DNA from: Eubacteriales bacterium
GTDB taxonomy: Bacteria > Bacillota > Clostridia > Saccharofermentanales > DTU023
Assembly (NCBI GenBank): GCA_030532065.1
Contig: JAUNLW010000001.1
Coordinates: 1 to 64,000, forward strand
Length of the DNA stretch: 64,000 bases
Direction of reading: 5' to 3'
In this document: one piece after another, positions 41,504 through 61,985 of the stretch
How positions within the stretch are numbered: position 1 is the first letter of the stretch
Layout: every line of letters begins with the position of its first letter
The notes under the pieces: generated by a model
Database searches by the model: none
The model's input: the letters and a program-made list of their open reading frames with translations, nothing else
What the model was told of the DNA's origin: nothing
Position numbers and translations under genes: made by a program

Positions 41504-41533
41504 TTGACCTAGCCCTAAAAGCCGTTGTACCAT
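41504..41533 (+). promoter_or_regulatory. Promoter of the btu/cob riboswitch transcript
   Basis: TTGACC (41504-41509), 18 bases, TACCAT (41528-41533). Both boxes are kept in the diverged copy near 29.56 kb, which supports function. Confidence 0.55.
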
Positions 41534-41537
41534 TAGG

Positions 41538-41697
41538 AATGCAAAGCAAATAGCGTTAGCAACAGGGAAGCCGGTGCAAAACCGGCACAGCCCCCGCTAC
41601 TGTAAGTATCTTGGGTTTAGCAAATGCCACTTAGTTCTCCTTTGGGAGACTTGGGAAGGCGCTGACCCTTACATATACAAGTCAGGATACCTGTTAC
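41538..41697 (+). ncRNA. Cobalamin riboswitch of the transporter and biosynthesis operon
   Basis: The leader contains GGGAAGCCGGTGCAAAACCG, GGCACAGCCCCCGCTACTGT, TGCCACT, TGGGAAGGC and the B12 box AAGTCAGGATACCTG in family order. It lies ahead of an intrinsic terminator and the btuC-like gene, so it should switch off B12 uptake and synthesis when cobalamin is plentiful. Confidence 0.95.
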
Positions 41698-41701
41698 AAA
41701 C

Positions 41702-41739
41702 GACCTTTCTTTCGGTGGGAAAGAAGTCTTTTTATTTTG
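41702..41739 (+). terminator. Riboswitch-controlled intrinsic terminator
   Basis: GAC plus TTCTTTC (41702-41713, two-base bulge) pairs with GAAAGAAGTC (41719-41728), followed by TTTTTATTTT. It directly follows the riboswitch B12 box. Confidence 0.75.
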
Positions 41740-46049: not shown

Positions 46050-46050
46050 C

Positions 46051-46827
46051 ATGATCTATTTTGTTGGAGCCGGGGCGGGCGCGCCTGACCTCATAACCGT
46101 ACGTGGTAGAAAACTGCTGGAAGAGGCTGATGTGGTGGTCTATGCCGGTTCATTAGTAAGTAAGGAACACCTGGACTATTGCAAGCCGGGTTGTGAGATT
46201 TACAATTCCGCCTTGTTAAATTTGGAAGAAATTGTCAGCATCTTAAAAGATGCCGAAGCCCGTGGCCTCTTGACTGTGCGTCTCCATACCGGTGATCCAT
46301 CGCTCTACGGAGCCATCAGGGAACAGATGGAAGCCATGGATGAGCTGGGTATTGACTACGAGGTCTGTCCGGGCGTCTCTTCTTACGCGGCTGCCGCGGC
46401 AGCCCTGAAGGCGGAATATACCGTGCCTTCGGTCAGCCAGACTTTGATCATCACGAGGATGGCCGGCCGTACCCCGGTACCAGAGGAAGAAAGCTTACAC
46501 TCTTTGGCCGCTCACCAAGCCAGCATGGCTATTTTCTTAAGCTCCGCATTATCTGAAGAAGTGCAAAGAGAACTGCTGGCTGGCGGGCTATCTCCCTCTA
46601 CACCCTGTGCCATTGCCTACAAGGTATCCTGGCCTGACCAGAGCCTACTTTACTGCCACTTGGAAGACTTGCACGATACCATGTCAGAAGCGGCTATCAG
46701 TAATTTTGCCCTCATTTTGGTAGGTGAGTTCCTGGGTGAGCGCTTTGAGCCTTCTCAGCTATATGACCCTTATTTTGGCACAGCTTTTCGCCATGCCCAA
46801 GATCAGCCGGAAATAAGTAAAGAGTGA
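46051..46827 (+). CDS. cbiF: Cobalt-precorrin-4 C11-methyltransferase CbiF
   Basis: A 258-residue tetrapyrrole methylase. Family motifs: FVGAGAGAPDLITVRGRKLL, the SAM-loop RLHTGDPSLYGAIREQM, and CPGVSSYAAAAAALKAEYTV. YAGSLVS and the RLHTGDPS loop are typical of CbiF/CobM among the methylases. It methylates C11 using SAM. Confidence 0.94.
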   Translation: MIYFVGAGAGAPDLITVRGRKLLEEADVVVYAGSLVSKEHLDYCKPGCEIYNSALLNLEEIVSILKDAEARGLLTVRLHTGDPSLYGAIREQMEAMDELGIDYEVCPGVSSYAAAAAALKAEYTVPSVSQTLIITRMAGRTPVPEEESLHSLAAHQASMAIFLSSALSEEVQRELLAGGLSPSTPCAIAYKVSWPDQSLLYCHLEDLHDTMSEAAISNFALILVGEFLGERFEPSQLYDPYFGTAFRHAQDQPEISKE

Positions 46828-46838
46828 GGTAAAGCTCT

Positions 46839-47864
46839 GTGTCTCAAGTAGCGATCATCAGTTTTAGCGCGCAGGGAGAAAATCTGGCGCAGCATATCCG
46901 AGCGCTCATGCTGCCTCTGGGCTGGGAAGCTGATGCGACCCGCTGCCCTAAGGGTAGCTTAGGAAATTGGGTATCTGAACATTTTCCCAAGAAAGACGCG
47001 CTGATCTTTATTGGCTCTTGTGGCCTTGCGGTACGAGCCATAGCCGGACAGGTCCGTAACAAAACAGAAGATCCGGCCGTAGTCGTTATTGATGAGAGCG
47101 GGTGTTTTGCGGTTGCTTTACTCTCCGGCCATCTGGGCGGAGCCAATCAGCTGACAGAAGACCTGGCAGAGCTTATCGGCGCGACTCCCGTGATCACAAC
47201 CGCCACTGACCGGCGAGGGATCTTCGCGGTAGATAGCTGGGCTAAAAGCCAGGGCCTTACTGTGCTAAATCCAGAGCGCATTGTGGAGGTCTCTTCTAAG
47301 CTGCTGGCAGGCAAACAGGTCTATTTCGCGAGTGATTTGCCCATCAAGGGACCAGTGCCTCAAGGCCTGATCGAGCTGGGTTATGAGCAAAGAGCAATTA
47401 CACCCGACTTTAGAGTCAGCCTTAAAGCCGGGAAGGAAGCTACAGCGCTAGAGCTAATCGCCCCGGTGATCAGTGTTGGTATAGGCTGCCGCAGGGGAAC
47501 AGAGCGAGAAGTAATAGAAAGTGTGGTCAAAGACTGCCTGGAACAGGTGGGAGCCAGTCCTGAGGCAGTCTTACGTATAGCCAGCATTAACCTTAAAGCA
47601 GAAGAGCCGGGCCTTTTGGCCCTGGCAGCAGCCTGGGGTCTTGAGCTATACACTTACAGCGCGGAGCAACTCAATGCTCTGGCCGGAAGCTTCACTGGCT
47701 CTGAGTTTGTATGCCGCGTCACCGGTACCGACAACGTATGCGAGCGGGCGGCTGTGTGCGGACTGAAAGGGGCAAAGCTTATCTTGACCAAGACCGCTGG
47801 CCAGGGAGTGACGGTGGCTTTAGCTCAAGTAGACCTGACGTTAAGTTTTTCCAAGGAAAGATAG
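46839..47864 (+). CDS. cbiG: Cobalt-precorrin-5A hydrolase CbiG
   Basis: A 341-residue CbiG with a GTG start. The N-terminal part has IFIGSCGLAVRAIAGQVRNK and GCFAVALLSGHLGGANQLTE; the C-terminal domain has SVGIGCRRGTEREVIE and the closing AVCGLKGAKLILTKTAG. It opens the ring lactone and releases acetaldehyde, a step unique to the anaerobic pathway. Confidence 0.94.
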   Translation: MSQVAIISFSAQGENLAQHIRALMLPLGWEADATRCPKGSLGNWVSEHFPKKDALIFIGSCGLAVRAIAGQVRNKTEDPAVVVIDESGCFAVALLSGHLGGANQLTEDLAELIGATPVITTATDRRGIFAVDSWAKSQGLTVLNPERIVEVSSKLLAGKQVYFASDLPIKGPVPQGLIELGYEQRAITPDFRVSLKAGKEATALELIAPVISVGIGCRRGTEREVIESVVKDCLEQVGASPEAVLRIASINLKAEEPGLLALAAAWGLELYTYSAEQLNALAGSFTGSEFVCRVTGTDNVCERAAVCGLKGAKLILTKTAGQGVTVALAQVDLTLSFSKER

Positions 47865-47871
47865 GATTTAT

Positions 47872-48609
47872 ATGGATAGAAAATATTATTTGTGCGCGGT
47901 GGGCATTGGCCCCGGCTCCAAAGAGGAAATGACCTTCCGAGCCTATGCCGCGTTAGAAGCAGCCGACCTGATCGTGGGTTATAAGACTTATATTGACTTG
48001 CTTAAGCCACTTTTCCCCGTGAAAGAATTTTACAGCACTGGTATGCGTGGAGAAGTTGAGCGTTGCCGCGAGGCGATCAGGCTGGCTTTGGAAGGAAAAC
48101 GCGTAGCCGTGATATCCAGTGGCGATGCCGGGGTCTTTGCGATGGCAACCCTACTGTTGGAACTGGCTCAGGAGGAGCCAGAGCTGGCGATTGAAGTAAT
48201 TCCCGGCGTTACGGCTGCTACTTCTGGAGCCGCTCTTCTGGGAGCTCCCCTGGCTCACGACTTTGCCTGCATCAGCTTATCTGACCAACTGACACCCTGG
48301 GCCTTGATTGAGCGACGCTTGCGCGCGGTAAGTGAGGCTGACCTTTGCCTGGCGCTTTATAATCCTGCCAGTAAGGAACGGCCTGACAGCTTACGCAAGG
48401 CGGCAGCGATAATGAGTGAGTTTAAGGCTCCAGAGACCGTCTGTGGCTATACACAGAAGATTGGCAGATCAGGTCAGGAAATCGGCTATCTGACTTTAGC
48501 AGAACTGGCGGATTTCCCGGCTGACATGCAGACTACGATCTTTGTTGGTAACTGTGAGACTCGGATCTTGGCCGGGCGCATGGTGACTCCTAGAGGCTAT
48601 AGACGTTAA
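47872..48609 (+). CDS. cbiH: Cobalt-precorrin-3B C17-methyltransferase CbiH
   Basis: A 245-residue methylase with VGIGPGSKEEMTFRAYAALE, VGYKTYIDLL, FYSTGMRGEVERCREA, the SAM-loop ISSGDAGVFAMATLLLE and PGVTAATSGAALLGAPLAHD. These are the CbiH/CobJ signatures. It performs C17 methylation and ring contraction in the cobalt route. It ends one base before cbiJ starts. Confidence 0.95.
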   Translation: MDRKYYLCAVGIGPGSKEEMTFRAYAALEAADLIVGYKTYIDLLKPLFPVKEFYSTGMRGEVERCREAIRLALEGKRVAVISSGDAGVFAMATLLLELAQEEPELAIEVIPGVTAATSGAALLGAPLAHDFACISLSDQLTPWALIERRLRAVSEADLCLALYNPASKERPDSLRKAAAIMSEFKAPETVCGYTQKIGRSGQEIGYLTLAELADFPADMQTTIFVGNCETRILAGRMVTPRGYRR

Positions 48610-49383
48610 ATGGACTTGATTCTTTTTGCTGGTACCAGTGAGGGTAGGCAATTGGCGTCCCTGGCGGCAGAGTGGGGGTTGGAAACCCTGGTCTCAGTAG
48701 CTACAGACTATGGAAAGGAGCAGATTGAGCCAGCGCCTTGTTTGCAAATCCAAGATGAACGGCTGGAAGAGGCGGAAATGGAAGCGCTGTTTGCTAAATA
48801 CCGCCCCAGCCTGATTGTGGACGCTACCCACCCGCACGCCGTCGTGGTCAGCCAAAATATTCGCCAGGCCGCCGCGGCACTTGATTTACCTGTATTGCGT
48901 ACAGCCCGCGCTAGCCAGCGCTTGCCTGCTCTTAATTACTTCTCGGATCTAGATACCTTGCTTACCTGGCTGACTGAGCAGGAGGGTAAGGTCTTTTCTT
49001 CACTGGGCCTCAAGAGCGCAGCCGCCCTGACTCAGCTCCCCGATTTCCAGGAACGCCTGGTCATACGCGTTTTGCCGCATTCAGAAGGTCTGCGCCAATT
49101 AGAAGAACTGGGTTATTTGCATCGGCAGGTGATCGCCATGCAAGGCCCTTTTTCCAAAGAGCTAAACCTGGCTATGTTTCAGGCTTCCGAGGCCAAAATC
49201 CTGCTGACCAAAGATTCCGGTAGCCGGGGAGGCTTTGAAGAAAAGATTAGAGCAGCCCAAGCCCTGCATATGCAAATAGCTGTCCTTGAGGCGCCCTCCG
49301 CACCCGGTGGAATGGCTCTGGCCGAACTGGAACAAAAGATGCGAGAGATTTTCTTCATAGGAGAGTGTGAAAAGCATGTCTAG
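48610..49383 (+). CDS. cbiJ: Cobalt-precorrin-6A reductase CbiJ
   Basis: A 257-residue CbiJ/CobK. LFAGTSEGRQLASLAAEWGL marks the N-terminal NAD(P)H fold, followed by VDATHPHAVVVSQNIRQAA and, near the C terminus, LLTKDSGSRGGFEEKI, all characteristic. It reduces the corrin ring. Its end overlaps cbiE-cbiT by eight bases. Confidence 0.94.
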   Translation: MDLILFAGTSEGRQLASLAAEWGLETLVSVATDYGKEQIEPAPCLQIQDERLEEAEMEALFAKYRPSLIVDATHPHAVVVSQNIRQAAAALDLPVLRTARASQRLPALNYFSDLDTLLTWLTEQEGKVFSSLGLKSAAALTQLPDFQERLVIRVLPHSEGLRQLEELGYLHRQVIAMQGPFSKELNLAMFQASEAKILLTKDSGSRGGFEEKIRAAQALHMQIAVLEAPSAPGGMALAELEQKMREIFFIGECEKHV

Positions 49384-50560
49384 AGTAAAGATCATTGCCT
49401 GTGGCCTGTCTCCGTCTACGCTTACTTTGGAGGCCCACGCGGCTCTCAGCGAAGCGGACTTCTTTATAGGAGCTCGCCGCCTATTGGCTAGTTTTGTCCC
49501 CAGAGAAGCGGAGCAGGCAGAGGCTTACCTAGCCCAGGAGGTAGCTGATATTGTCGCTTCCAGGCCGAATAACAACTGTGCCGTGCTAGTTTCCGGAGAT
49601 TCTGGCTTCTACAGTGCCGCTGCCGGCATCTGTCAATTCCTGGATGAAGCTCCGCAAATCTACCCCGGCATTTCTTCGCTATCCTATTTTTTCGCCAAGT
49701 TGGGTCGTCCCTGGCATAAAGCCAAGATTATTTCCTGCCATGGGCGTAAAGGAAACTTGCTGGCTGCCGTACGCCGGAATCAAGAAGTGTTTTGCCTTAC
49801 CGGCAAAAATACTACAGAATTACTGCGGCATTTAACTGATTCTGGCTGCGGGGCCTTAACCGTCACAATCGGTGAAAATCTAGGTTTTACTACGGAAAAG
49901 ATCCGCTCCGGGAAAGTGGAAGAATTGGCGCGGGAGACGGACTATTCTTCTTTGGCAGTTCTGCTCGTGGATAATCCAGCGGCCACTAAGGCTATTACTA
50001 CCGGTATCATGGACACAGAATTCTGTCGTGGCTCACTGCCTATGACCAAGAGCGCGGTCCGGGCACAAGTGCAGAGTCTGCTCCAGCTAGAGCCAGACGA
50101 TATTTGTCTGGACTTGGGTTGCGGTACGGGTTCAGTAGCCATTGAGATGGGCTTGGGAGCCTATGAAGGCCAGGTTATGGCGGTAGACAAAGAGGAAGAA
50201 GCGGGACAACTTCTAGCAGCCAATGCCTTAAGGTTTCAGCTGGATAATGTCAGCTTCCATAAGGCGGATATTGGGGAATTTCTTGCCACAGAGCCTCTTT
50301 GCGACAAGATCTTCCTCGGTGGGGGAGGGGCGAAAATTATCCCTCAGGTACTGGAATTCTTTGCCAGCCATGAGAGAGTAAAACGGCTGGTTTTGACGGC
50401 CATCAGCCTGGAGTCACTGGAGGTTGCCCTGGCGGCTATAAAAGCGCTGGGCCTTTCTGCCAAAATTATGCAGATCCAGGTTACGCGTGCCAAACATCTG
50501 GGCACAAACCACTTACTCATGGCCGAGAATCCCACTTTTATTTTGGAGGCCAGTCGATGA
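49376..50560 (+). CDS. cbiET: CbiE-CbiT fusion: cobalt-precorrin-7 C5 and -6B C15 methyltransferase
   Basis: A 394-residue two-domain enzyme, like CobL. Residues 1 to about 195 are CbiE (IACGLSPSTLTLEAHAALSE, ADFFIGARRLLASF, LVSGDSGFYSAAAGI). Residues about 215-394 are CbiT, a class I SAM methylase (PMTKSAVRAQVQSLLQL, ICLDLGCGTGSVAIEM) that also decarboxylates. ATG 49376 fits AGGAGAG upstream better than a GTG at 49367. Confidence 0.95.
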   Translation: MSRVKIIACGLSPSTLTLEAHAALSEADFFIGARRLLASFVPREAEQAEAYLAQEVADIVASRPNNNCAVLVSGDSGFYSAAAGICQFLDEAPQIYPGISSLSYFFAKLGRPWHKAKIISCHGRKGNLLAAVRRNQEVFCLTGKNTTELLRHLTDSGCGALTVTIGENLGFTTEKIRSGKVEELARETDYSSLAVLLVDNPAATKAITTGIMDTEFCRGSLPMTKSAVRAQVQSLLQLEPDDICLDLGCGTGSVAIEMGLGAYEGQVMAVDKEEEAGQLLAANALRFQLDNVSFHKADIGEFLATEPLCDKIFLGGGGAKIIPQVLEFFASHERVKRLVLTAISLESLEVALAAIKALGLSAKIMQIQVTRAKHLGTNHLLMAENPTFILEASR

Positions 50561-51894
50561 ATCAACGTTTACTTATTGCTGCCACCAGTTCTGATTGTGG
50601 CAAGACAACTCTGACTTTGGCCTTGCTGGCAGCCTTAAAAGCGCGTGGCATTCCCTTATTGAGCTATAAATCCGGACCAGACTATATCGATCCCGCCTTT
50701 CATCGCCAGGCCCTGGGCATAGAGTCGTATAATTTGGATCCTTTTTTCCTGGATAGCGATGGCCTTTGCCAGATGCTGGACCTGGCTCATGACCGCCTGG
50801 CTATTATGGAGGGCGCTATGGGTTACTATGACGGTATTGGACTGGAAGGCAAATGCTCAAGCTACGAATTGGCTCAGGCCACGCACACACCGGTCATCTT
50901 GCTGATCAATGGAAAAAAACTCTACCAATCCGTGGCAGCTATGGCTCAAGGTTATCGTGATTTTCGCCTGGATTCGCGTATTAAAGGAGTAATCCTTAAC
51001 CGGATAAAGCCCTATCTCTACCCCGGGATGAGTGCCATGCTTGCTCAAGTAGGCATCAAGACCTACGGCTTTTTACCGGAGCTGCCGGAGGCAGAATTGG
51101 CCAGCAGCTATTTAGGACTAAAACAGCCGACAGATGAGAAGTGGTCTCGAGTATTGCGCAGCCTGGCAGCAGCCGCGGAAGAGTATCTGGACCTGGATGG
51201 CCTCTTAGAATTAGCTAACTCCGCGCCAGAACTACGCTACCAGAAAAGGGAAATGGAGCCTCTCGGAAGCTTTAAGCTAGCTGTTGCCAGAGACGCTGCT
51301 TTTTGCTTCTTATACCCGGAAAACATCCTGCTCTTAGAAAAAATGGGAGCAGAGGTCAGCTATTTTAGCCCGCTGGCTGGGGACACTTTGATGGAAGATA
51401 TCGACGCGCTTTACCTGCCCGGAGGCTATCCCGAACAATACGCGAAAGAGCTTGCCGCATCTGCTAGCAGATTTATCCTAAAAGAAGCCCTTGAGCAGGG
51501 AATGCCTTGTATAGCAGAAGGTGGAGGCTTCCTCTACTTACAGGAAAAACTGCAGGGTCAGCCCATGGTTGGCTTTCTCGAGGGAAGCTCCGAGCTGACT
51601 GATCACCTGCAGGGCTTTGGTTACCACTATATTGAGCCGCGCGAGATAGGAGCTTATCTCTTAGGCCAAGCCGGACAGCCTTTCCCGGCTCATTGTTTCC
51701 ACTATTGTCGAACCGATGGTCCTGGTCAGGATTACAGCTACCGGCGAGCAGCTTCGGGTAAAAGCAAATTTTCCGGCTATGGCGGAATCCGTCTCTACTC
51801 AGGTATGGCTCATCTGTATTTCCCCGCCATGCTAAATGAGATAAGTAATTTCGCGCGCCAGGCCCTGGCTTACCAGACTGAAAAACAGAACTGA
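50557..51894 (+). CDS. cbiA: Cobyrinate a,c-diamide synthase CbiA with altered glutaminase site
   Basis: A 445-residue CbiA of normal length. The ATP-dependent synthetase half has ATSSDCGKTTLTLALLAAL and KSGPDYIDPAFHRQALG. The GATase half keeps YLPGGYPEQYAKELA and the late His in GMAHLYFPA. The nucleophile motif, AECGG in the family, reads CIAEGGGFLYL here: codon GGT (Gly) stands for TGT (Cys). Amidation from glutamine should fail; ammonia use remains possible. A Cys lies four residues earlier but is not in the usual elbow. Confidence 0.93.
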   Translation: MNQRLLIAATSSDCGKTTLTLALLAALKARGIPLLSYKSGPDYIDPAFHRQALGIESYNLDPFFLDSDGLCQMLDLAHDRLAIMEGAMGYYDGIGLEGKCSSYELAQATHTPVILLINGKKLYQSVAAMAQGYRDFRLDSRIKGVILNRIKPYLYPGMSAMLAQVGIKTYGFLPELPEAELASSYLGLKQPTDEKWSRVLRSLAAAAEEYLDLDGLLELANSAPELRYQKREMEPLGSFKLAVARDAAFCFLYPENILLLEKMGAEVSYFSPLAGDTLMEDIDALYLPGGYPEQYAKELAASASRFILKEALEQGMPCIAEGGGFLYLQEKLQGQPMVGFLEGSSELTDHLQGFGYHYIEPREIGAYLLGQAGQPFPAHCFHYCRTDGPGQDYSYRRAASGKSKFSGYGGIRLYSGMAHLYFPAMLNEISNFARQALAYQTEKQN

Positions 51895-51952
51895 CAATTG
51901 TAGTTTTTTAGAAGAGGTTGTGATACGAACGCGATCTTAGGAGAAAGAGAAA

Positions 51953-52582
51953 ATGAGTAATTATGAGAATTTACCGCCACAGGAAATAGAGAACACCAGC
52001 TTCCAGATTATTCGCTCTGAGTTGAGTCACCGCCTGGATCCGGAACAAGAGCCGATCATCTTGCGCTGCATCCATACCAGCGCGGACTTTGATTACCAGG
52101 ATAGTCTCTACTTCTCTGAGGGAGTGATTGAAAAAGCCTTAACAGCGTTTCAAGGCGGAGCCAATTTGATTACTGATACACAAATGGCCCTGGCCGGCAT
52201 CAATAAACGCGCAGCTAAAGAGCTGGGCCTTAGCCTACACTGCTTTGTGGCCGACCCGGAGCTAGCGACAAAGGCCAAGGAATTAGGCGTTACCCGCTCT
52301 AAGCTGGCGGTAGAAAAAGGACTGAGCTTACCTGAGCCACAGATCTTGGTCATTGGCAACGCCCCTACTGCCTTGCTCCACCTGGCGGACTTAATCGCTA
52401 AGGGACAGGCGGACCCGGCGCTGGTGATTGGTGTGCCAGTGGGCTTTGTCAATGTCTTGGAAGCTAAGGCTGCCATTATGGAACAGCCCGTGCCACAGAT
52501 AGTCAACCGAGGAAGAAAAGGCGGCAGCAATATTGCCGCCGCCATAGTAAACGCGTTGATGTATCAGCTGGTGGAGCGTTAA
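51953..52582 (+). CDS. cbiC: Cobalt-precorrin-8 methylmutase CbiC
   Basis: A 209-residue CbiC/CobH. IENTSFQIIRSEL near the start, RCIHTSADFDYQDSLYFSEG with the catalytic His, DTQMALAGINKRAAKELG and the C-terminal RGRKGGSNIAAAIVNALMY identify it. It moves a methyl from C11 to C12 to give cobyrinate. It ends base to base against the convergent MATE gene with no visible terminator between them. Confidence 0.95.
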   Translation: MSNYENLPPQEIENTSFQIIRSELSHRLDPEQEPIILRCIHTSADFDYQDSLYFSEGVIEKALTAFQGGANLITDTQMALAGINKRAAKELGLSLHCFVADPELATKAKELGVTRSKLAVEKGLSLPEPQILVIGNAPTALLHLADLIAKGQADPALVIGVPVGFVNVLEAKAAIMEQPVPQIVNRGRKGGSNIAAAIVNALMYQLVER

Positions 52583-53962
52583 TTAAACACGCTTCAGTTT
52601 CCAGTCGCCGCGACGGTAATAGTAAACAATTACTGACAGATCCGCGATCTCCGCAATTAGGAAGCTGATCCAGATTGAGTTCATGTCTACTTGCATGATC
52701 TTGACTAGAACGTACATCAGAGGCAGATGCACTGCCCAACGAGATACAAGAGTCGATACCAGGATAGGGCGGTTATAACCGGAACCAGAGAATGCGATGC
52801 GCATGCCAGAGCCGATTGAGGTGATTATGATGGCGATGGAGATCCAGCGCAGCATGGGTGTTCCTGCGGCCAGTACTTCCGCGTCGGGAGTAAAGATACC
52901 CAGGAAAGTTTGCGGGAAGATGATCAAGAGGACTGAGAAGACGGTAATAAGACCCGAGATGATAAAGGTGGAAATCCGGGTTAGGAAGGTAGCTTCCTCT
53001 ATATTGTCGCGTCCCAGGGCATGACCGACTAAGGTAGAACCAGCAAAGATGAAGCCTAATATGGGTGTAAAGCTAAACATCATGAGCTTGGCGCCTAGTC
53101 CCATAACGGTTAGCGCTAAGGTACCGTAGCTGGTAATAAAGAGCATCATCAGGGAGTTAAAGCCTTGGCGGACCAGAAGTTGCAGGCCGGCAGGAAGTCC
53201 AATAGACAGTAACTGCAGATCGATCTCCTTGTCCAGTCGCAAGAGTCCTTTAAAGGAGATAGATACATCTTTTTTACCACGCAGCAAGATGATAAAGCCT
53301 GCCACAAAGGAGAGGGCGTTGAAGATAACGGTAGCCAGACCAGCTCCGTATACACCCAGGTTGAGACCGGGAATGGTGAGTGAGCCGATGCTGATAGACG
53401 GGAACATGAAGATAGGGTCAAAGATCAGGTTGCCGATAGAGGCTGCGATCATGATCTTCATAGGCGTCTTACTATCGCCGGTACAACGGAAAATGGTGTT
53501 TATTGAATAGGAGGAGAAGGCAATGGGCAGAGCAAAGATACGGATCATACCGTAATCTAACGCTGCCTGCTTGACCACTGGATCGTCCGAATATAGGTTG
53601 AGCAGAGGATGGATAAAGATAAGCAACAAGGCCGCAGTGATCAAAGCCAAGACGACCTTAAAGCTGATGGTCTGCTCGGAAATACGCTTGGTGCGTTCTT
53701 CTGTTTTGCGACCGAAAGATTGTGAGATCATCGAGACAGAGCTTGCCCCAGCGATCTCATTTAAAACGGTAAAAAGACCATAGATGGTAGAAAATAGGGT
53801 AACTCCGCCAATAGCCTCTTTGGAAATTTTTCCGACCCACATCATATCGATTAGGTCGTAGAAGGCTTGTAAAGAGTAGGCGATAATACTGGGATAAGAA
53901 AGCTTCCACAAATTACTGGTAAGCTCTTTCTTCCTCCGCGAATCTAAAACCGTTTCTTCCAT
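52583..53962 (-). CDS. MATE family efflux transporter
   Basis: A 459-residue polytopic protein with about 12 hydrophobic segments in two halves. ELTSNLWKLSYPSIIAYSLQ and DLIDMMWVGKISKEAIGG at the N terminus and the later GLPAGLQLLVRQGFNSLMM are MATE-type. MATE proteins export drugs or metabolites with Na+ or H+. The ATG at 53962 has AGGGG upstream; the frame is open to 54145 without a better start. It interrupts the + strand B12 cluster, so a link to corrinoids is not shown. Confidence 0.9.
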   Translation of the reverse strand: MEETVLDSRRKKELTSNLWKLSYPSIIAYSLQAFYDLIDMMWVGKISKEAIGGVTLFSTIYGLFTVLNEIAGASSVSMISQSFGRKTEERTKRISEQTISFKVVLALITAALLLIFIHPLLNLYSDDPVVKQAALDYGMIRIFALPIAFSSYSINTIFRCTGDSKTPMKIMIAASIGNLIFDPIFMFPSISIGSLTIPGLNLGVYGAGLATVIFNALSFVAGFIILLRGKKDVSISFKGLLRLDKEIDLQLLSIGLPAGLQLLVRQGFNSLMMLFITSYGTLALTVMGLGAKLMMFSFTPILGFIFAGSTLVGHALGRDNIEEATFLTRISTFIISGLITVFSVLLIIFPQTFLGIFTPDAEVLAAGTPMLRWISIAIIITSIGSGMRIAFSGSGYNRPILVSTLVSRWAVHLPLMYVLVKIMQVDMNSIWISFLIAEIADLSVIVYYYRRGDWKLKRV

Positions 53963-54166
53963 CACTTGCCCCCTGCTGTTAAGAATTAGGGACCGGCTAC
54001 GTAAATAAATACGCAATGGCGCGCAACAAGCCGCAGGCTCGGAAATAACTGAGCCTGACCCCTGAACTTTGATGAATGCTATTATAGCAGATAGGCCTTG
54101 GGAAAATTCGCTATAATACTGGTTGGCTCGCACGAGCGGTAACATTTAATAGAAAGAGAACTACTT

Positions 54167-55051
54167 ATGGACAAGCTATGGGAAATAGTAAAACTCTTTA
54201 TATACGGTCTGGTAGAAGGCATTACCGAGTGGTTACCCGTCAGTTCTACCGGTCACCTTCTACTCTTAGAGGAGCACTTACCCCTCAACTTCTCAGACAA
54301 GTTTCTGGCTTTTTTCCGGATTGTTATCCAGCTGGCTGCAATTTTAGCTGTAATCATATACTTCTGGCAGGAAATTTGGCCGGTGAAGAGTTTAGCCGGC
54401 CTTTCTGGTGGCTACCAGGGCAACCTAATTAAGGAAGAAAACCCGGTATTATTGCGCTTGGGTTCCTATTATCTGGATCGGGCCACAATTTTTCTTTGGC
54501 TTAAGATCATTCTGGCCTGCCTGCCAGCGGCCATCGTAGGATTGCTCTGGGATGATGTATTTGAAGCTAAATTCTATAATCCCTTTAGTGTTTCACTTGC
54601 GCTGATCATCGTGGGTGTTTGCTTTATTCTGATCGAATCACTGCAGGGTCAGGCAACACCTCGCTATCAAAGCGTAGCCGATATTACCTGGCAGATGGCG
54701 CTTTTTATTGGCCTTTTCCAGATGCTGGCAGGAGTCTTCCCTGGTGTATCACGTTCTGGTGCCTGCATCCTGGCGGGCCTGATTCTGGGTCTCGCGCGAC
54801 CAGCGGCCGCTGCCTTTAGCTTCTACCTGGCAATTCCCGTTATGTTAGGAGCCAGCTTTTTAAAGCTGTTACGACTGGACCTGGCACCTGGCAGCTACGA
54901 GCTCCTGGGACTCGCTTTGGCCTCTTTGGTTGCCTTCATCGTATCTATGTTAACTATTCGCTTTTTCCTGGGATTTGTCAGGAGCCATAGCTTTTTACCA
55001 TTTGCCATCTACCGAATCATTCTCGGCTTTGTGGTACTCATCAGCGGATAA
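54167..55051 (+). CDS. uppP: Undecaprenyl-diphosphatase-family membrane phosphatase (UppP/BacA)
   Basis: A 294-residue membrane phosphatase with both catalytic signatures: GLVEGITEWLPVSSTGHLLL near the N terminus and FPGVSRSGACILAGL later, with about eight membrane segments. The family dephosphorylates undecaprenyl diphosphate in peptidoglycan lipid recycling. It begins a gap-free run of B12 genes (next gene 12 bases on). As no CobC-type phosphatase is in the window, a role on membrane-bound cobalamin phosphate is a possible alternative. Confidence 0.9.
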   Translation: MDKLWEIVKLFIYGLVEGITEWLPVSSTGHLLLLEEHLPLNFSDKFLAFFRIVIQLAAILAVIIYFWQEIWPVKSLAGLSGGYQGNLIKEENPVLLRLGSYYLDRATIFLWLKIILACLPAAIVGLLWDDVFEAKFYNPFSVSLALIIVGVCFILIESLQGQATPRYQSVADITWQMALFIGLFQMLAGVFPGVSRSGACILAGLILGLARPAAAAFSFYLAIPVMLGASFLKLLRLDLAPGSYELLGLALASLVAFIVSMLTIRFFLGFVRSHSFLPFAIYRIILGFVVLISG

Positions 55052-55063
55052 AGGAGTTAGTCC

Positions 55064-55714
55064 ATGTCGAAATTAGCTTTTTTCCTAGACTTGACCGACT
55101 GGCCTTGTCTGGTAGCCGGTGGCAGCGCGCTTTGCGCAGAACGCTCAAGAGATCTCTTGGAAGCGGGAGCCATTCTCTCTTGCTGGTCAGAGGATTTCAG
55201 TGAAGGTTTTAATAAATTAGTGGCTAACTACCGTGATCAGATTTCGCTGATCCGTGGCCGTTTGGACACTACTTTACTTAGCCATATGCTCAAGTCACAG
55301 CAGGGACCGCGTCTGGTGGTGCTGGCTACTGATGAGCCGGAACTGGATCTGGCCCTTTGGCAAGTGTGCGAGGCGCATAGTGTGCCCGCTTGCCTTCCAG
55401 AGCGCCCGGGCCGCCTGGATTTTGGCCATACTATTGATCGCGGTGCCCTACGCATGGCTGTTTCCGCGGAGACAGCTCCAGAAGTAGAAGAAATGCTGGG
55501 TCGACGTATGGAAAGAGAGTTATCACGCGACTGGATTGAGGGTTCCGAGGCCTATGCCGCTTTGCGCAATTCGGAAGCTATTAAGGCCCGCCACCCTGAT
55601 TTACGTGACCCGGAGCTCAGAGAACTTGCCGCAGCTCTCCTGGACTGTAACGGACGTTTTGCCGCGGCCAGGATCCGCACAGAAAGGCGTTTAGGTAAAG
55701 AATTTAATGGTTAG
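55064..55714 (+). CDS. Precorrin-2 dehydrogenase-like protein (CysG N-terminal domain type)
   Basis: A 216-residue protein of the Met8/CysG-N type, making sirohydrochlorin from precorrin-2 with NAD+. It has PCLVAGGSALCAERSRDLLEAG (Rossmann loop, with AGGSA for the usual GGGxVA) and LVVLATDEPELDLAL, the catalytic Asp region. It provides the CbiK substrate. No ferrochelatase function is implied. It overlaps cobT by eight bases. Confidence 0.85.
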   Translation: MSKLAFFLDLTDWPCLVAGGSALCAERSRDLLEAGAILSCWSEDFSEGFNKLVANYRDQISLIRGRLDTTLLSHMLKSQQGPRLVVLATDEPELDLALWQVCEAHSVPACLPERPGRLDFGHTIDRGALRMAVSAETAPEVEEMLGRRMERELSRDWIEGSEAYAALRNSEAIKARHPDLRDPELRELAAALLDCNGRFAAARIRTERRLGKEFNG

Positions 55715-56882
55715 TGATTTTCAAAGTGGATTTAGTGAACGCAAGCATAACCTTTTGTCAAAAAGACCGCGTTTAGAAGAGCAAGCTGATTTTTCCTTTG
55801 CGGATCTTAAGGCTTATCTAGCAGAGATACCACCACTGGATACAGACTGCCGTGATGCTTCTTATAAGGCCTGGAACGGTCTTTGCAAACCCTTGCATTG
55901 CCTTGGAATATTGGAAGATATTATAGCTGAGATGGCCGGCATGCAGGGCGAAGAGCAAGTAAACCTCCGGCCGGCAGCTCTCTTTTGTTTTGCCGCTGAT
56001 AACGGCATTGTGGAAGCAGGTGTCAGCCAGAGTGGCCAGGAGATAACGGCGCAGGTCTTAAGTAATATGGCGGCAGGTCAGGCTACAGTAGCTATTTTCT
56101 GCCGTAACCAGCAAATGGACTTTTATCCCGTGCATGTAGGAGCCAGCCACTATAAAGAACGCTGTCCTGGCGTAATCGACTATCCCATTTGTCCTCAGGG
56201 AACTCGCAATTTTCTCAAGACAGAAGCCATGACTGAGCAGGAGACCCTGGCTGCCCTGCAATTGGGAATCAGCCTCGCAGACTTAGCTCATGAGCAAGGC
56301 TATAAATTAGTTGTCGGTGGCGAGATGGGTATTGGCAACACCACCACCTCAACGGCTCTGGCTACGCTTTTGCTGGACTTAGATCCCTTCCAGGTGACTG
56401 GCAGAGGTGCTGGCCTTTCGGATACAGCTCTTCTGCGCAAAAAACAGGTGATCCAAGAAGCTAAAATACGCTACGCCTCTTATAAAAATGATCCTTTCCG
56501 TGCTTTGTCGGCTGTGGGTGGCTTAGACATCGCCTCCTTGGCGGGGCTATACCTGGGAGCGGCTCACAACCGTATGCCAGTAATTTTAGATGGGCTCATC
56601 TCCTACGCCGCAGCTTTGGTCGCTTGCAGGTTAGCACCTCAGGCCAGAGCTTATCTGCTGGCCAGCCATTTGCCCCAGGAAGCGGCGGGTCAGGCTATCG
56701 CCAGCGACCTTAAGCTAAGACCTTTCCTGGATTTGGGCCTCTCTCTGGGCGAAGGCGCGGGGGCCTTGTTTCTCTTACCTCTCTTAGACATGGCAGTGGC
56801 AGAATTGCAGGAGATGCCTTCCTGGGATGATGGCAAGATTGAGGCTTACGAAGATTATCAGGAAAAACATGAAGTCAAATAA
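55707..56882 (+). CDS. cobT: Nicotinate-nucleotide-dimethylbenzimidazole phosphoribosyltransferase
   Basis: A 391-residue CobT making alpha-ribazole phosphate for the lower ligand. Motifs: FAADNGIVEAGVSQSGQEIT, EMGIGNTTTSTALATLLLD, TGRGAGLSD, and LGEGAGALFLLPLL, which normally reads GEGTGA and carries the catalytic Glu. The N-terminal 30 residues extend beyond the usual start. Confidence 0.94.
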   Translation: MVSDFQSGFSERKHNLLSKRPRLEEQADFSFADLKAYLAEIPPLDTDCRDASYKAWNGLCKPLHCLGILEDIIAEMAGMQGEEQVNLRPAALFCFAADNGIVEAGVSQSGQEITAQVLSNMAAGQATVAIFCRNQQMDFYPVHVGASHYKERCPGVIDYPICPQGTRNFLKTEAMTEQETLAALQLGISLADLAHEQGYKLVVGGEMGIGNTTTSTALATLLLDLDPFQVTGRGAGLSDTALLRKKQVIQEAKIRYASYKNDPFRALSAVGGLDIASLAGLYLGAAHNRMPVILDGLISYAAALVACRLAPQARAYLLASHLPQEAAGQAIASDLKLRPFLDLGLSLGEGAGALFLLPLLDMAVAELQEMPSWDDGKIEAYEDYQEKHEVK

Positions 56883-57582
56883 GACTTGCTATATTGAGCT
56901 GCTGCAGGCAGAAGAAAGCCCTAAAACTGGGGAAAATTTCATCCGCACGCGATCACGAGCGGTGGATCTTTTGTCTTATCGCGCTCTCCTAGCTATTGGT
57001 GGCAGTAAGTCCGGCAAGTCTCGTCTTTTAGAGAACTGGGCTCAAGCCGCCGCTAAAGCCTTAGATGCTCCGCTTATATATTTGGCGACCCTCCAGGCGG
57101 ATGAGGATCCGGAAAATCAGGCTCGTATTGCGCGCCATCAGGCGCAGCGAGCAGGCAAAGGCTTCCACAGTTTGGAAATTGCCTATGATCTGACCCGTCA
57201 GTTGGACGAGATACCCCAGGGATCAGTGGTGCTCTTGGAGTGCCTGGGTACTCTTTTGGCAAATGAATGTTTTGATCCGGCTAACGCTGATCGTCAAGCC
57301 TTATGGCAGGATTCAGCGAAACTTATCAGTGACAGTTTACTGGCAGATCTGGCTCAGATCATGGACCGGACCGGTTTGCTGCTTATTGCGGCCAACGATG
57401 TGTTTTGTGATGGAGAGATCTTTACCGGTGGTACCCGTACCTGGTTAGAGGCCAATGGCCTAATTTTACAAGGCCTGGCCCAAAGGTCTGATCTCTTGGC
57501 CCTTGAGGTAAGCGCCGGCTTGCCCTTAATGCTGCATAAACGTTCGCAAACCGTAGATAGTGAAATAGCGGAGGAAATCTGA
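56869..57582 (+). CDS. cobU: Adenosylcobinamide kinase/guanylyltransferase CobU
   Basis: A 237-residue CobU. The P-loop ALLAIGGSKSGKSRLLENWA and RIARHQAQRAGKGFHSLEI, with the His that is guanylylated, are clear. The C-terminal part is weaker: CobU usually has NEVGxGIVP and RxxRDxxGR, but here it reads AANDVFCDGEIFTGG. The ATG at 56869 overlaps the cobT end. An N-terminal leader of about 40 residues precedes the P-loop. Confidence 0.85.
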   Translation: MKSNKTCYIELLQAEESPKTGENFIRTRSRAVDLLSYRALLAIGGSKSGKSRLLENWAQAAAKALDAPLIYLATLQADEDPENQARIARHQAQRAGKGFHSLEIAYDLTRQLDEIPQGSVVLLECLGTLLANECFDPANADRQALWQDSAKLISDSLLADLAQIMDRTGLLLIAANDVFCDGEIFTGGTRTWLEANGLILQGLAQRSDLLALEVSAGLPLMLHKRSQTVDSEIAEEI

Positions 57583-57584
57583 GC

Positions 57585-58379
57585 GTGGGTAGTAAGCAAC
57601 ATAGCTTTGGCAGTTTTTGGCGTGGCCTTTGCTGCTCTTTTTCGACTTATTCTCTTTTGCCGCCGCCCGGCTACCGTTACCGGGAAGGGGATCTTGCCTA
57701 TTGCCTGGCAAGCTTTCCTCTGGTGGGCTTTTGCCTCGGCCTCTTTTCCTGGCTGCTGCTGTTGGTGAGCCGTAGCCTGGCCTTCTCGGCAGGCCTGTTT
57801 GCCGCTTTCAATTTTGCGCTGCAAGCCATTCTTACTGGTGCTATCCATCTGGATGGCTTTGCCGATGCCGCTGACGGCATCTGGTCGCGGCGTGACCGAG
57901 AGCGTATGCTCGAGATCATGCACGACCCACATATCGGCCCCATGGCCGTGATCGCCTTGATTGTGCTTGCCGTAGTTGATGTAGCCCTGGAAGCGGAGTT
58001 AGCTGCGCGGGCGGTATCGGTTTGGCGGCTGGGACTTAGTTTTGCTTTATTGGAAGGTTTGACCAGGACTCAGACTGCGGCCTTGATCTTGCGGCTGCCC
58101 TCTGCGCGCGAAGATGGTATGGCCAAGTCTGCCAACGCGGTCCAGGCCCCTAAAAGCGAACTTCTAGTCTGGTCGTTCTTTGTGATATCCAGCCTGGCGC
58201 TCCTCTGTGTTTGGGGCTGGACAGCTTGCTTCCTGCCCTTGGCCGTGCTTTTAGCTACTTATGCTTTCGCGCGTTACACGCTGGGCAAGTTTTCCGGCAT
58301 GACAGGTGACCTGGCCGGCTACTACCTTTGCCTACTGGTCCCTCTGACCCGCTTGCTTTTGCTCTTGATTATGGGTTGA
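57585..58379 (+). CDS. cobS: Adenosylcobinamide-GDP ribazoletransferase CobS
   Basis: A 264-residue integral membrane protein with GTG start and RBS GAGGAA. It has GAIHLDGFADAADGIWSR (metal-binding Asp motif) and IMHDPHIGPMAVIAL, then several hydrophobic helices. It joins the activated lower ligand to adenosylcobinamide-GDP at the membrane. Confidence 0.94.
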   Translation: MGSKQHSFGSFWRGLCCSFSTYSLLPPPGYRYREGDLAYCLASFPLVGFCLGLFSWLLLLVSRSLAFSAGLFAAFNFALQAILTGAIHLDGFADAADGIWSRRDRERMLEIMHDPHIGPMAVIALIVLAVVDVALEAELAARAVSVWRLGLSFALLEGLTRTQTAALILRLPSAREDGMAKSANAVQAPKSELLVWSFFVISSLALLCVWGWTACFLPLAVLLATYAFARYTLGKFSGMTGDLAGYYLCLLVPLTRLLLLLIMG

Positions 58380-58422
58380 TAAGAGCGTTTAGATCGGCTT
58401 ACTTGAGAAAGGAAACAGAAAT

Positions 58423-58851
58423 ATGATTTTGGTTTATGGTGGAGCTTATCAGGGCAAGTTGGATTTTGCCCGTTCATTATTGAAAGATAACTATGTGGAA
58501 CTGCCGGATCTGGCTCAGTGGGAGGACGTGGTGGCCACAGGAGAGGCAGCACTGCTTGGACTCGGTATGGATCTGGGCCTGCTGGTGGCAGACATTGAGG
58601 ACTGGCTGGAGCGCAACTATCGCTTATCTAATGCTGACTGGGATGAAAGCCTGACTCTGCTTACCGAGAGCATGCCGGAACCTGCGGTCATCGTGATTGA
58701 GGACCAAGGCCAGGGCGTAGTGCCCCTCGACGCTGAGCTGCGAGCCAAGCGTGAAGCAAACGGCAGAGCTCTGCAATATTTTTCTTCTCAGGCGACCGAG
58801 GTTTACCGCATTATGGCTGGTCAGGCTTTGCAGTTGAAAGGTGGTAATTGA
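58423..58851 (+). CDS. CobU-like half-length protein with degenerate P-loop
   Basis: A 142-residue protein. The start MILVYGGAYQGKLDFA mirrors the CobU start MILVxGGxxSGKSxFA, but GKS has become GKL. The C terminus keeps what CobU1 upstream has lost: GQGVVPLDAELRAKREANGR and EVYRIMAGQALQLK. The middle with the guanylylated His is missing. It may be a partner or relic of CobU. It overlaps cbiB by four bases. Confidence 0.65.
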   Translation: MILVYGGAYQGKLDFARSLLKDNYVELPDLAQWEDVVATGEAALLGLGMDLGLLVADIEDWLERNYRLSNADWDESLTLLTESMPEPAVIVIEDQGQGVVPLDAELRAKREANGRALQYFSSQATEVYRIMAGQALQLKGGN

Positions 58852-59855
58852 TGCCTTGGCGGGAATTGGGTTTTGCGCAGCTGACAGCTTACAGTTTTAA
58901 TCTCACGGCTGCCCTGGCCATGCTGTTGGATTTTACCTTTGGTGACCCGGAGAGCTTCCCTCATCCGGTAGTGGGCGTAGGTAAGCTCATAGCTTTTCTG
59001 GATCGCCGACTGAATCGACCTTTGCTCACAGATCAACAGCGATTGTCTCGGGGCGTGCTGGTTGCTGCTTTCATTCCGGCGGGACTTACTCTCTGCCTCT
59101 ATGGCTTTCTCAAAATTTTCTATCACATTCATCCGCTGTTTTATCTGGCTGCGCGCCTTTTCCTGGCTTATCAGTTGCTGGCGCTCAGAAGTCTTGGCCA
59201 TGAGGCAGAACAAGTAGCCGTGGCTATGCGTGAGCAGGGCATCGTGGCCGCCCGCGCCCTACTATCGAGGATCGTGGGACGTGACACAGAACAACTGACC
59301 GCGCCTGAGATCGTAAAGGCCACCGTCGAAACCGTGGCAGAAAATTTTAGCGATGGAGTGGTAGCACCCCTGTTTTTCCTTGTCCTCTTCGATTTGCCGG
59401 GCATGTTCTTTTATAAAATAGTAAACACTCTGGATTCGATGCTGGGTTATCGCAATTCCCGTTATGAGTACTTTGGTAAGTTCGCTGCCAAGCTGGATGA
59501 TGCGGTAAATTTCATACCGGCGCGCCTGGCCGCTTTATTTCTCTGGTTTGCCAGTTGGTTCTGTGGACTAGATGGCAAAGCTGCCTGGCAGATCTATTGG
59601 CGTGACCGGAAAAATCATCTGTCCCCCAACTCTGGCCATCCGGAGGCGGTTGCGGCTGGCGCTTTGGGGCTCGCCTTGGGCGGTACCCATACGTATGGCG
59701 GTCAGACTGTAGTAAAACCGACTATCGGTAAGGAAACACGTCTGCCTGATATTGAAGACATAGATCGCGTGGTCAAACTGCTCAATGTGGCAGCCGTTTT
59801 GGCTTTGGCCCTTTTACTGCTGGGGCGCTACGCCTGGGAACGTTTTATTTGGTGA
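58848..59855 (+). CDS. cbiB: Adenosylcobinamide-phosphate synthase CbiB
   Basis: A 335-residue membrane protein beginning with LDFTFGDPESFPHPVVGVGK, then SRIVGRDTEQLTAPEIVKAT, ENFSDGVVAPLFF and GYRNSRYEYFGKFAAKLDD, all CbiB/CobD(Ps) signatures. It attaches aminopropanol phosphate to adenosylcobyrate, working with the CobD domain encoded next. Confidence 0.95.
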   Translation: MMPWRELGFAQLTAYSFNLTAALAMLLDFTFGDPESFPHPVVGVGKLIAFLDRRLNRPLLTDQQRLSRGVLVAAFIPAGLTLCLYGFLKIFYHIHPLFYLAARLFLAYQLLALRSLGHEAEQVAVAMREQGIVAARALLSRIVGRDTEQLTAPEIVKATVETVAENFSDGVVAPLFFLVLFDLPGMFFYKIVNTLDSMLGYRNSRYEYFGKFAAKLDDAVNFIPARLAALFLWFASWFCGLDGKAAWQIYWRDRKNHLSPNSGHPEAVAAGALGLALGGTHTYGGQTVVKPTIGKETRLPDIEDIDRVVKLLNVAAVLALALLLLGRYAWERFIW

Positions 59856-59861
59856 TTAATT

Positions 59862-61985
59862 ATGGGAACACAAGCAAAAACTGATTTAACCAAGGCTGAA
59901 CTCTTAGCCGCTATGCCGCACGGGGCTGACCGTCAAAAGGTGGCCGACATTTGTGGCCTGGATCCGGATCAGATCTTAGATTTTTCGGCTAATATCTTTG
60001 CGCCGGGTTTTACCCCTGCCATAGAAAAGAGTGTTAATAGTGCCGCAGCTAAGATTTATCCGGAACCTTACGCGGACAGCCTGCGCCAGGAGTTGGCTAA
60101 AAAACGTAAGTTAAGACCGGAACAGATCCTGCTGGGCAATGGGGGGGCAGACCTCATCTATCGCCTGGCTGGGTTTCTGCGTACCTGCCCCAATTTCCCC
60201 TTGCGCTCAGAAGTACTGGTGTTGGCTCCCGGCTTCTCTGAGTATGCTAAGGCCTTAAGAGCTTATGGTCTGGGAATAAAAGAATATCCCTTAAAAGCTG
60301 ACCTGGATTTCCGCGTAGACGAGGAGATTCTAGCTTATCTTGATCAAAGTACACTGGCGGTCTGGCTCTGCCAACCGCAGAATCCAACTGGTCAGCTGCT
60401 GGACTCAGAACTTCTGGCAAAACTAAGGAGAGCTTGCTCTGAGAACGGCATTTATCTAATCCAGGATGAATGCTTCTTGGATTTTCTCTCGCCGGCTGAG
60501 TCTGAGGCATGCAGTTTGAGCCCGGGACTTAAGCCTCAGGAATTCGTGCTCAAGTCCTTTACCAAACTCTATGGTATGCCCGGATTGCGCTTGGGCTGGC
60601 TGGAAGCAGGTAGCGTGGAAACGCTGGAGCTCTTGCGTGCCCAAACTCCTACCTGGCAGGTATCGGGTCCTGCTCTGGCTGCCGGATTGGCTGCGCTTCT
60701 GACGCCGCATGAGGAACTGGAACAGTGGCGATCTCAGATAGATGAAGAAAGAGCAAAACTCAGCCGCGCCCTTACTGCCTTTGGCGCGAGCCAGATTACA
60801 GGTAAGGCTAATTTCCTCTTCTTTCGGCATAAATTGGAGGATCTGCAAGTTAGGCTGTTACAAGACACAGAACGTCCTGTATTGATCCGTAACTGCGCGG
60901 GCTATGCCGGCCTCAGCGCCGGTTACTATCGCATAGCAGTCTTAGAGCCGGAAGAAAACTCGCTCTTAATACGGGCGCTGGAGCGTCTGGCAAAGACCAG
61001 GCAGTCAGAGCCAGCGCAGCCTGAAACCAAGGCGAAGTTTCAAATTGTAGGGGTGAACGCTCTTGAGCGCGCTTCAGTTTTAGTTGAAGAACAGAAACCC
61101 GTCAGCACGGAAACTCGTTTGCGTAAGCTTCAAGAGAGCCTCCGCGGTCAAGGCCCTTTGAGCCTTATGGTCTTAGGCTGCTCTTCTTCGGTTGGTAAGA
61201 GTGTTATAGCGGTAGGACTCTGCCGCCTCTTTGCGCGCCTGGGTTTCCGGGTCATGCCTTTTAAATCACAGAATATGGCGGAGTATGTGGAACAGGCGGA
61301 CGGACGTCGCTTTGCCGTGGCGCAGATGCAGATGGCCGAGGCCGCCTGTCAGGATTACATACCGGAGATGAATCCAGTCCTGCTTTGCCCCAAGACGGAG
61401 CGCGGCTCCGATGTTTATCTTTTGGGCAATTACTGGCAAAGCCCTTCCGCAGGTCAATATTATAAGATTAAACATCAGCTGTGGTCGGAAGTAGAGAAGG
61501 CCTACCTCGAGCTTGAAAGCCGAGCGGATATAATTATCATTGAGGGCGCGGGCAGCCCGGCAGAGATCAACTTGCAAAAAGATGACTTTGTCAATTTAGG
61601 CCTGGCCAGGCGCTTAGACCTGCCCTGTATTCTGGTGGGAGATATCGACCGGGGTGGTGTCTTTGCCGCGCTCTATGGTACTTTGGCCTTGACCGGTGAG
61701 CTTGGCCAGGAGCAGATCCGCGCCATGTTGATCAATAAATTCCGCGGTGATCCCAAGATCCTGGCTCCTGGTCTGGTACAGTTCGAAACCCTGGCTCGCA
61801 AGCCGCTCCTGGGTGTTATGCCTAGATTCCCTCATCTCACTCTGGAACGCGAAGACACCATGTCAGATGACACGTCCAGTTACAGCAGGGAAGAGCGAGA
61901 AACAGCTTACGACCTTTTGGCCGATGGCCTGGCGGAGCATTTAGACTTGGAGCTTTTAAGCAAAATTATTTTGCGGCAAGACTAA
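59862..61985 (+). CDS. cobD-cbiP: CobD-CbiP fusion: threonine-phosphate decarboxylase plus cobyric acid synthase lacking GATase domain
   Basis: A 707-residue fusion. Residues 1 to about 385 are CobD, a PLP decarboxylase (LDFSANIFAPGF; LILLGNGG-type loop; PLP Lys in LKSFTKLYGMPGLRLGW). From about 445 is the cobyric acid synthase ATP domain (LGCSSSVGKSVIAVGLCRLF; PFKSQNMA; IEGAGSPAEINL; GDIDRGGVFAALYGT; INKFRGDPKIL). At EREDT the sequence jumps to REERETAYDLLADGLAEHL, the normal C-terminal tail, so the GATase domain of about 200 residues is missing in frame. No GATase gene follows. Confidence 0.92.
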   Translation: MGTQAKTDLTKAELLAAMPHGADRQKVADICGLDPDQILDFSANIFAPGFTPAIEKSVNSAAAKIYPEPYADSLRQELAKKRKLRPEQILLGNGGADLIYRLAGFLRTCPNFPLRSEVLVLAPGFSEYAKALRAYGLGIKEYPLKADLDFRVDEEILAYLDQSTLAVWLCQPQNPTGQLLDSELLAKLRRACSENGIYLIQDECFLDFLSPAESEACSLSPGLKPQEFVLKSFTKLYGMPGLRLGWLEAGSVETLELLRAQTPTWQVSGPALAAGLAALLTPHEELEQWRSQIDEERAKLSRALTAFGASQITGKANFLFFRHKLEDLQVRLLQDTERPVLIRNCAGYAGLSAGYYRIAVLEPEENSLLIRALERLAKTRQSEPAQPETKAKFQIVGVNALERASVLVEEQKPVSTETRLRKLQESLRGQGPLSLMVLGCSSSVGKSVIAVGLCRLFARLGFRVMPFKSQNMAEYVEQADGRRFAVAQMQMAEAACQDYIPEMNPVLLCPKTERGSDVYLLGNYWQSPSAGQYYKIKHQLWSEVEKAYLELESRADIIIIEGAGSPAEINLQKDDFVNLGLARRLDLPCILVGDIDRGGVFAALYGTLALTGELGQEQIRAMLINKFRGDPKILAPGLVQFETLARKPLLGVMPRFPHLTLEREDTMSDDTSSYSREERETAYDLLADGLAEHLDLELLSKIILRQD

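Follow-up and report, generated by a model that had tools for sequence, protein, structure and literature searches.

The two corrin amidotransferases of B12 biosynthesis, the cobyrinic acid a,c-diamide synthase CbiA/CobB and the cobyric acid synthase CbiP/CobQ, join an ATP-dependent synthetase to a glutamine amidotransferase (GATase) domain with a nucleophilic Cys, and in Salmonella both CbiA and CbiP accept ammonia in vitro too, with a Michaelis constant (Km) in the millimolar range. Here we analyse 64,000 nucleotides of Eubacteriales bacterium (GCA_030532065.1, contig JAUNLW010000001.1, positions 1 to 64,000, forward strand), referred to as the window, in which cbiA and a cobD-cbiP fusion gene belong to one B12 locus and in which both encoded enzymes appear to have lost the glutaminase function. 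The window CbiA shares with CbiA/CobB the family, the length, the fold, the synthetase motifs and the place in the operon, but has a Gly where the known enzymes have the nucleophilic Cys; the window CbiP shares with CbiP/CobQ the ATP domain and the C-terminal helix, but the entire GATase_3 domain is gone, and it is fused to a CobD/CobC-type aminotransferase as in genome G055 of the same order. We think it likely, on the comparisons given below, that both are working synthetases fed by free ammonia, and that they are one case of a state found throughout their bacterial family.

A tethered glutaminase with an ammonia tunnel has been treated as near-universal since free ammonia is kept low, which is normally so because glutamine synthetase captures it (PMC3376133). 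Among the described systems, the single-domain short form of NadE is likewise a synthetase without glutaminase, and its use of free ammonia has been shown in vivo; however this short form is described as ancestral (PMC3376133), while in the present case the glutaminase would have been lost secondarily in several unrelated enzymes. The MurT/GatD lipid II amidotransferase likewise combines a synthetase with a CobQ-like GATase partner, and the GATase half of our window CbiA model resembles GatD, but the GATase there is a separate subunit, whose Cys is kept in the solved enzymes and is missing from some GatD-like proteins of the family studied here. Blochmannia vafer is likewise a bacterium without glutamine synthetase, yet it is an intracellular insect symbiont, and the sections of its genome report drawn on here record no loss of amidotransferase nucleophiles (PMC3017870).

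The corrin amidotransferases of the window

The window CbiA has 445 residues and is matched over its full length by NF002204 (356 bits, cut-off 254), as well as by TIGR00379 (282.5 bits, cut-off 261.4), by the Pfam CbiA domain and by the GATase_3 domain PF07685 (58.7 bits). Its synthetase half carries an SSDCGKTT P-loop and keeps 26 of the 29 columns which are at least 95% identical outside the family. In the GATase half the motif reads CIAEGGGFLYL, and the replacement of the nucleophilic Cys by Gly, first noticed in the initial annotation, is confirmed by alignment, where Gly322, with the codon GGT, faces a Cys in all of the 36 CbiAs from outside the family. Under the known mechanism, the use of glutamine by such an enzyme should be impossible. 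The AlphaFold model (predicted local distance difference test, pLDDT, 92; predicted template modelling score, pTM, 0.90) places Gly322 at the turn of the nucleophile elbow, between the strand 318-321 and the helix 323-328, and the GATase half has HisH besides GatD as its likenesses, so the dead domain is predicted to retain its fold; a sequence search against solved structures gave no match for CbiA.

The fusion frame encodes 707 residues, of which about 20-375 form the threonine-phosphate decarboxylase/CobC-type aminotransferase (20-373 covered by TIGR01140) and the remainder the cobyric acid synthase. The profile of the latter, NF001989, matches residues 434-669 with 288 bits (cut-off 273) and only from position 2 to position 238 of 480, and no PF07685 match is given by the Pfam scan of this part. 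The missing domain that had been read from the letters of the window is therefore real, and the alignment reveals how it went: the GATase has been cut out between the ATP domain and the tail helix, which are now joined at about residue 675/676 (about 61886/61887). In G055 the same CobD-CbiP fusion is of full length with an intact GATase, thus the fusion as such is compatible with an intact enzyme. As judged from the conserved columns of CbiA and the motifs of CbiP (Table 1), the synthetase halves of both enzymes are intact, as had also been claimed.

Loss of the glutaminase among relatives

We compared 38 draft genomes of the family, with g2 to g7 denoting genera within it and G000 the genome of the window. 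The nucleophilic Cys of CbiA is lost in 7 of the 8 family genomes carrying the gene, being Gly in G000, G014, G026 and G031, Gln in G001, Ala in G008 and Ser in G007, with Cys in G002, and the catalytic His is lost in half of them (G001, G008, G014 and G026), whereas the alignment of CbiAs outside the family has both Cys and His in 36 of 36. For CbiP, the glutaminase is lost in 8 of 9 family copies, seven of them without the GATase domain and one, in G031, of full length with the Cys changed to Gly (GIGGGYHM), leaving the G007 copy as the only intact one; all of the deletion variants keep the SSVGKS-like P-loop and the EGAGS-AEINL and RGGVFA motifs. A local sequence error, which would have undone the initial annotation, is rejected, as relatives share the loss by way of Gly, Ala, Gln, Ser and deletions. 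The contrast between the family and the outside is strong (Fisher's test, p = 2e-7 for the CbiA Cys and p = 6e-9 for the CbiP GATase), with the caution that the sequences are not independent.

Among the 80 named CbiP loci from outside the family, one of which is frameshifted (L201) and one of which ends at a contig edge (L211), the GATase is intact except for two clear losses, namely L171 (GIGSSYP) from a Thermoanaerobacterales metagenome-assembled genome (MAG) and the truncated L186 from an Oscillospiraceae MAG with an intact CbiA; these are independent losses of the CbiP glutaminase. A seeming loss of the Cys in three outside CbiAs (L134, L157 and L193) was due to a wrong regular-expression match, the true motif being AECGG. 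In other families of the order, L012 (G042) and L013 (G055) are divergent CbiA-like paralogues with neither P-loop nor catalytic Cys.

Such losses of catalytic residues and of domains, together with the fast CbiP branches of G000, G014 and G026, might be taken as decay, with the genes on the way to pseudogenes and de novo B12 synthesis ended. We regard this as very unlikely, because the frames stay open at 40-50% identity with intact synthetase motifs, because the nonsynonymous divergence (dN) of the G007/G002 CbiA pair, about 0.165, is far below a saturated synonymous divergence (dS) in both halves, and because the CbiP domain has been excised cleanly, sparing the C-terminal helix. Moreover the B12 pathway around cbiA and cbiP is complete and comes with two cobalamin riboswitches, and two enzymes of central metabolism, GuaA and PyrG, show the same loss.

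The trees describe how the losses came about. One clade for the nine family CbiP rows is rejected by the approximately unbiased (AU) test (p = 3e-4), and so is one clade for the eight family CbiA rows (p = 2.5e-5); the intact G007 CbiP is sister to an intact outside sequence, and the G007 CbiA with Ser is sister to the G002 CbiA with Cys. The eight CbiP loss rows as one clade are not rejected by the tree (AU p = 0.096); the deletion and the point loss of CbiP are separate events. Going by these trees, the cbi genes entered the family more than once and the glutaminase was lost repeatedly. The simplest history seems to be that a family already adapted to ammonia took in cbi genes repeatedly and that their glutaminase was then lost, the ammonia state of the host being placed first because the Gly-type PyrG described below forms a single old clade, in contrast to the cbi genes, which have more than one origin and have each lost the glutaminase; some of the branches behind this history are long.

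Glutaminase loss in other amidotransferases

The initial annotation had offered ammonia-dependent amidation or a separate shared glutaminase as readings, and had seen the parallel loss as a matter of one pathway in one genome. As to a shared glutaminase, no GATase of the CobB/CobQ type was found in G000 by profile searches of the draft: no PF07685 domain besides that of the dead CbiA was detected, and the single PF00117 match is a PuuD-like hydrolase. The extra PF07685 matches in relatives turned out to be GatD, MurT-GatD fusions or DJ-1-like proteins and not a shared corrin GATase. An unrecognised, distant GATase subunit acting in trans on CbiA and CbiP is to our mind the least credible of the explanations considered; a search by hidden Markov model (HMM) in a draft that is 93% complete may miss a divergent or absent gene, however G000 offers no candidate for either PF07685 or PF00117, nor was any unexplained conserved open reading frame (ORF) noted in the operons. 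The restriction to one pathway and one genome does not hold either, since G000 GuaA and the family PyrG, PurL, PurF, AsnB-like and GatD-like proteins are affected as well.

In the GuaA of G000 (C7:41623, L128), the ATP pyrophosphatase is intact but the GATase has shrunk and lost its catalytic region. GuaA is likewise truncated in every copy of g2, g3 and g4 that can be read at the N-terminus and also in G022, while it is intact in five genomes; weak PF00117 matches in frames of 430-457 residues, first read as CarA, are GuaA with an eroded GATase. For PyrG, whose active site was surveyed in the family genomes, the Cys is changed to Gly (GIGLGMQ-type) in 34 of 37 copies, several of which have an altered His or Glu too. 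The other three copies bear the Cys, form a separate clade and stand alongside a Gly-type copy in the same genome, such that two CTP synthases occur per genome in G001 (L105/L091), G006 (L106/L082) and G012 (L238/L220), one of the Cys type and one of the Gly type. The Gly is encoded by all four Gly codons, and because all four are in use, this suggests that Gly at the nucleophile position is kept by selection. The PurL Cys is lost in the two genera where it was seen (GINNGFQ in G002, GIGAGMC in g2), PurF in g2 starts with MSGIVG, i.e. with its Cys1 changed to Ser, the AsnB-like proteins of g3 start with MSDY or MADY, and three GatD-like proteins, L055 (G028), L061 (G017) and L066 (G026), have Ser, Gly and Ala in place of the catalytic Cys. 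In L047 (G008) and L049 (G014), MurT and GatD are in one ORF with the GatD Cys intact. As a background to these losses, a survey that covered 660-800 genomes for each enzyme gives 0% of pyrG, guaA, purL and asnB without glutaminase, where domains were counted and not active-site residues (PMC3376133, Table 1).

A loss across unrelated enzymes, including the class II PurF and AsnB-like proteins, would be explained if natural glutamine antagonists similar to 6-diazo-5-oxo-L-norleucine (DON), azaserine or acivicin, which alkylate the nucleophilic Cys, had selected for the loss of their target, and the active-site Cys of CTP synthase is in fact modified by DON (PMC9138612). Nevertheless we hold this to be highly improbable, as antagonists alone explain neither the absence of glutamine synthetase nor the excision of whole domains, a supply of ammonia would still be needed, and several members retain intact PurF and GuaA.

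Glutamine synthetase, GlsA and the supply of ammonia

The search for glutamine synthetase (PF00120) gave no hit in 26 of the 38 family genomes, among them G000, G001 and G002, with all of the 14 control genomes positive; the enzyme does occur in g2, in g5 and in some members of g3 and g6. The free glutaminase GlsA occurs in G000 (C12:34483), G002, g6 and all five genomes of g3, and in the four of these with a full-length hit, about 160 bp separate glsA from the Cys-less pyrG that follows it on the same strand (L087 in G004, L088 in G010, L090 in G024 and L077 in G020), while in the fifth, G016 (L078), a glsA fragment is upstream of pyrG. This arrangement makes the g3 GlsA a candidate for a glutaminase that serves CTP synthase as a detached unit. 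In G007, glsA (L112) adjoins a NifH/ChlL-like gene.

These findings raise the explanation that GlsA gives local ammonia and serves the synthetases as a shared detached glutaminase, for which its occurrence in the genomes above and its place next to pyrG in g3 speak, and with which the shared glutaminase of the initial annotation would survive in another form. However, the profile search did not find GlsA in 27 of the 38 genomes, including those of g2, g4, g5, g7 and G001, where the nucleophile loss is equal and where G001, of the same genus as G000, has even lost both corrin glutaminases, and therefore GlsA is no general answer; besides, the glsA of G000 is unlinked to the cbi genes and guaA. 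We consider this explanation unlikely, though the best of the alternatives.

The feeding of CbiA and CbiP by free ammonia would proceed as follows. As in the normal enzymes, the P-loop synthetase domain would use ATP to activate the corrin carboxylates, and ammonia from solution would attack the activated carboxylate, passing in CbiA through the inert but still folded GATase domain and entering directly in CbiP, where this domain is excised. The same state would extend over the family, with glutaminase function lost from GMP synthetase, CTP synthase, FGAM (phosphoribosylformylglycinamidine) synthetase and others, and most family genomes, having no detectable glutamine synthetase, would lack the main sink of ammonia, by which a direct use of ammonia becomes plausible. 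We infer three things here: activity of the enzymes, the role of ammonia as their in vivo donor, and a high level of ammonia inside the cell. Such chemistry has precedents: external ammonia is usable by GMP synthetases in vitro (PMC10526850), the formation of CTP from NH3 is well documented (PMC9138612), and in vivo, ammonia feeds the short NAD synthetases (PMC3376133).

Several points weigh against the free-ammonia reading. The ammonium Km of normal GMP synthetases is high (that of E. coli GMP synthetase, for instance, is 103 mM; PMC10526850, Table 1), and therefore the reading requires that ammonia inside the cell be high or that the Km have been lowered. The loss of glutamine synthetase is no precondition for that of the glutaminase, because g2 and g5 genomes with glutamine synthetase also have the Gly-type PyrG, and the use of glutamine is not abolished everywhere, because some family members retain an intact PurF or GuaA. 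For G000 itself, the presence of GlsA counts against it; and as no match to the class II GATase PF13522, GlmS or PyrG was found in this genome, with 14 of 14 control genomes positive for each model, its nucleotide and amino-sugar metabolism stays partly unexplained. Lastly, all of the genomes are incomplete drafts (92.9% for that of the window) and the absences are HMM absences.

Gene neighbourhood and other features of the window

The features of the B12 locus are collected in Table 1. The run of cob genes is broken at 52583-55051 by a multidrug-efflux-like membrane transporter ORF on the minus strand and an undecaprenyl-diphosphatase-like ORF. A restriction-modification-like island (22638-41379) separates the cobalt transport genes from the cbi operon and holds ResIII helicases, an N6/N4 methylase, a type III endonuclease domain, DUF4391 and an SNF2 helicase. 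Further upstream, a single ORF at 2191-3489 combines a TsaB-like domain with a RimI-like GNAT acetyltransferase.

Table 1. Coordinates of the B12-related features in the window, counted from its first letter
Feature	Position	Strand	Evidence
Cobalamin riboswitch before FecCD/ABC/binding-protein genes and cbi operon	41520..41712	+	Rfam RF00174, 91.5 bits
cbiD, cbiF, cbiG, cbiH, cbiJ, cbiET, intact upstream anaerobic corrin genes	44904..50560	+	
cbiA, cobyrinic acid a,c-diamide synthase with predicted catalytically dead GATase_3 domain	50557..51894	+	NF002204, PF07685, AlphaFold
Gly322 codon GGT at the nucleophilic Cys position	51520..51522	+	Alignment; C in 36/36 outside CbiAs
His419 codon, catalytic His position, kept in G000	51811..51813	+	Alignment
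cbiC, precorrin-8X methylmutase	51953..52582	+	
Precorrin-2 dehydrogenase-like gene, cobT, cobU, cobS, CobU-like short ORF, cbiB (remaining B12 pathway)	55064..59855	+	
cobD/cobC-type aminotransferase fused to cbiP without GATase domain	59862..61985	+	TIGR01140, NF001989
CbiP ATP/synthetase domain, motifs SSVGKS, EGAGSPAEINL and DIDRGGVFA intact	61161..61886	+	Motif reading
Retained CbiP C-terminal tail helix (REERETAYDLLADGLAEHLDLELLSKIILRQD) joined directly to ATP domain	61887..61982	+	Alignment with full-length G055, G007, G031

Conclusions

Taken in its widest form, the reading says that throughout the family glutamine has for the most part been abandoned as the nitrogen donor of biosynthesis, with CTP synthase, GMP synthetase, FGAM synthetase, PurF, the AsnB-like proteins and both corrin amidases fed by ammonia, with glutamine synthetase dropped from most genomes, with acquired genes losing the glutaminase after their entry, and with the pyrG-adjoining glutaminase of one genus maybe being a detached source of ammonia; for this full statement we see the chances as evenly poised. 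The individual chemistry is known, and the breadth and the repetition of the loss are new as far as we found, no report of a family-wide glutaminase loss having appeared in the literature searched, itself a part of the whole.

For annotation there is a warning, as enzymes of this sort are labelled glutamine-hydrolysing though they would be incapable of it. The homologues form ready sets of the ammonia type and the glutamine type for testing how tunnel and Km evolve, and they display synthetases that tolerate the removal of the domain (CbiP and GuaA) against those that keep it in an apparently inert form (CbiA and PyrG). In the bacteria of this family, free ammonia probably takes the place that glutamine has in nearly all other bacteria, and with the nucleophile lost from at least six enzymes and glutamine synthetase mostly not found, the family would represent a natural experiment on the role of the glutaminase half.

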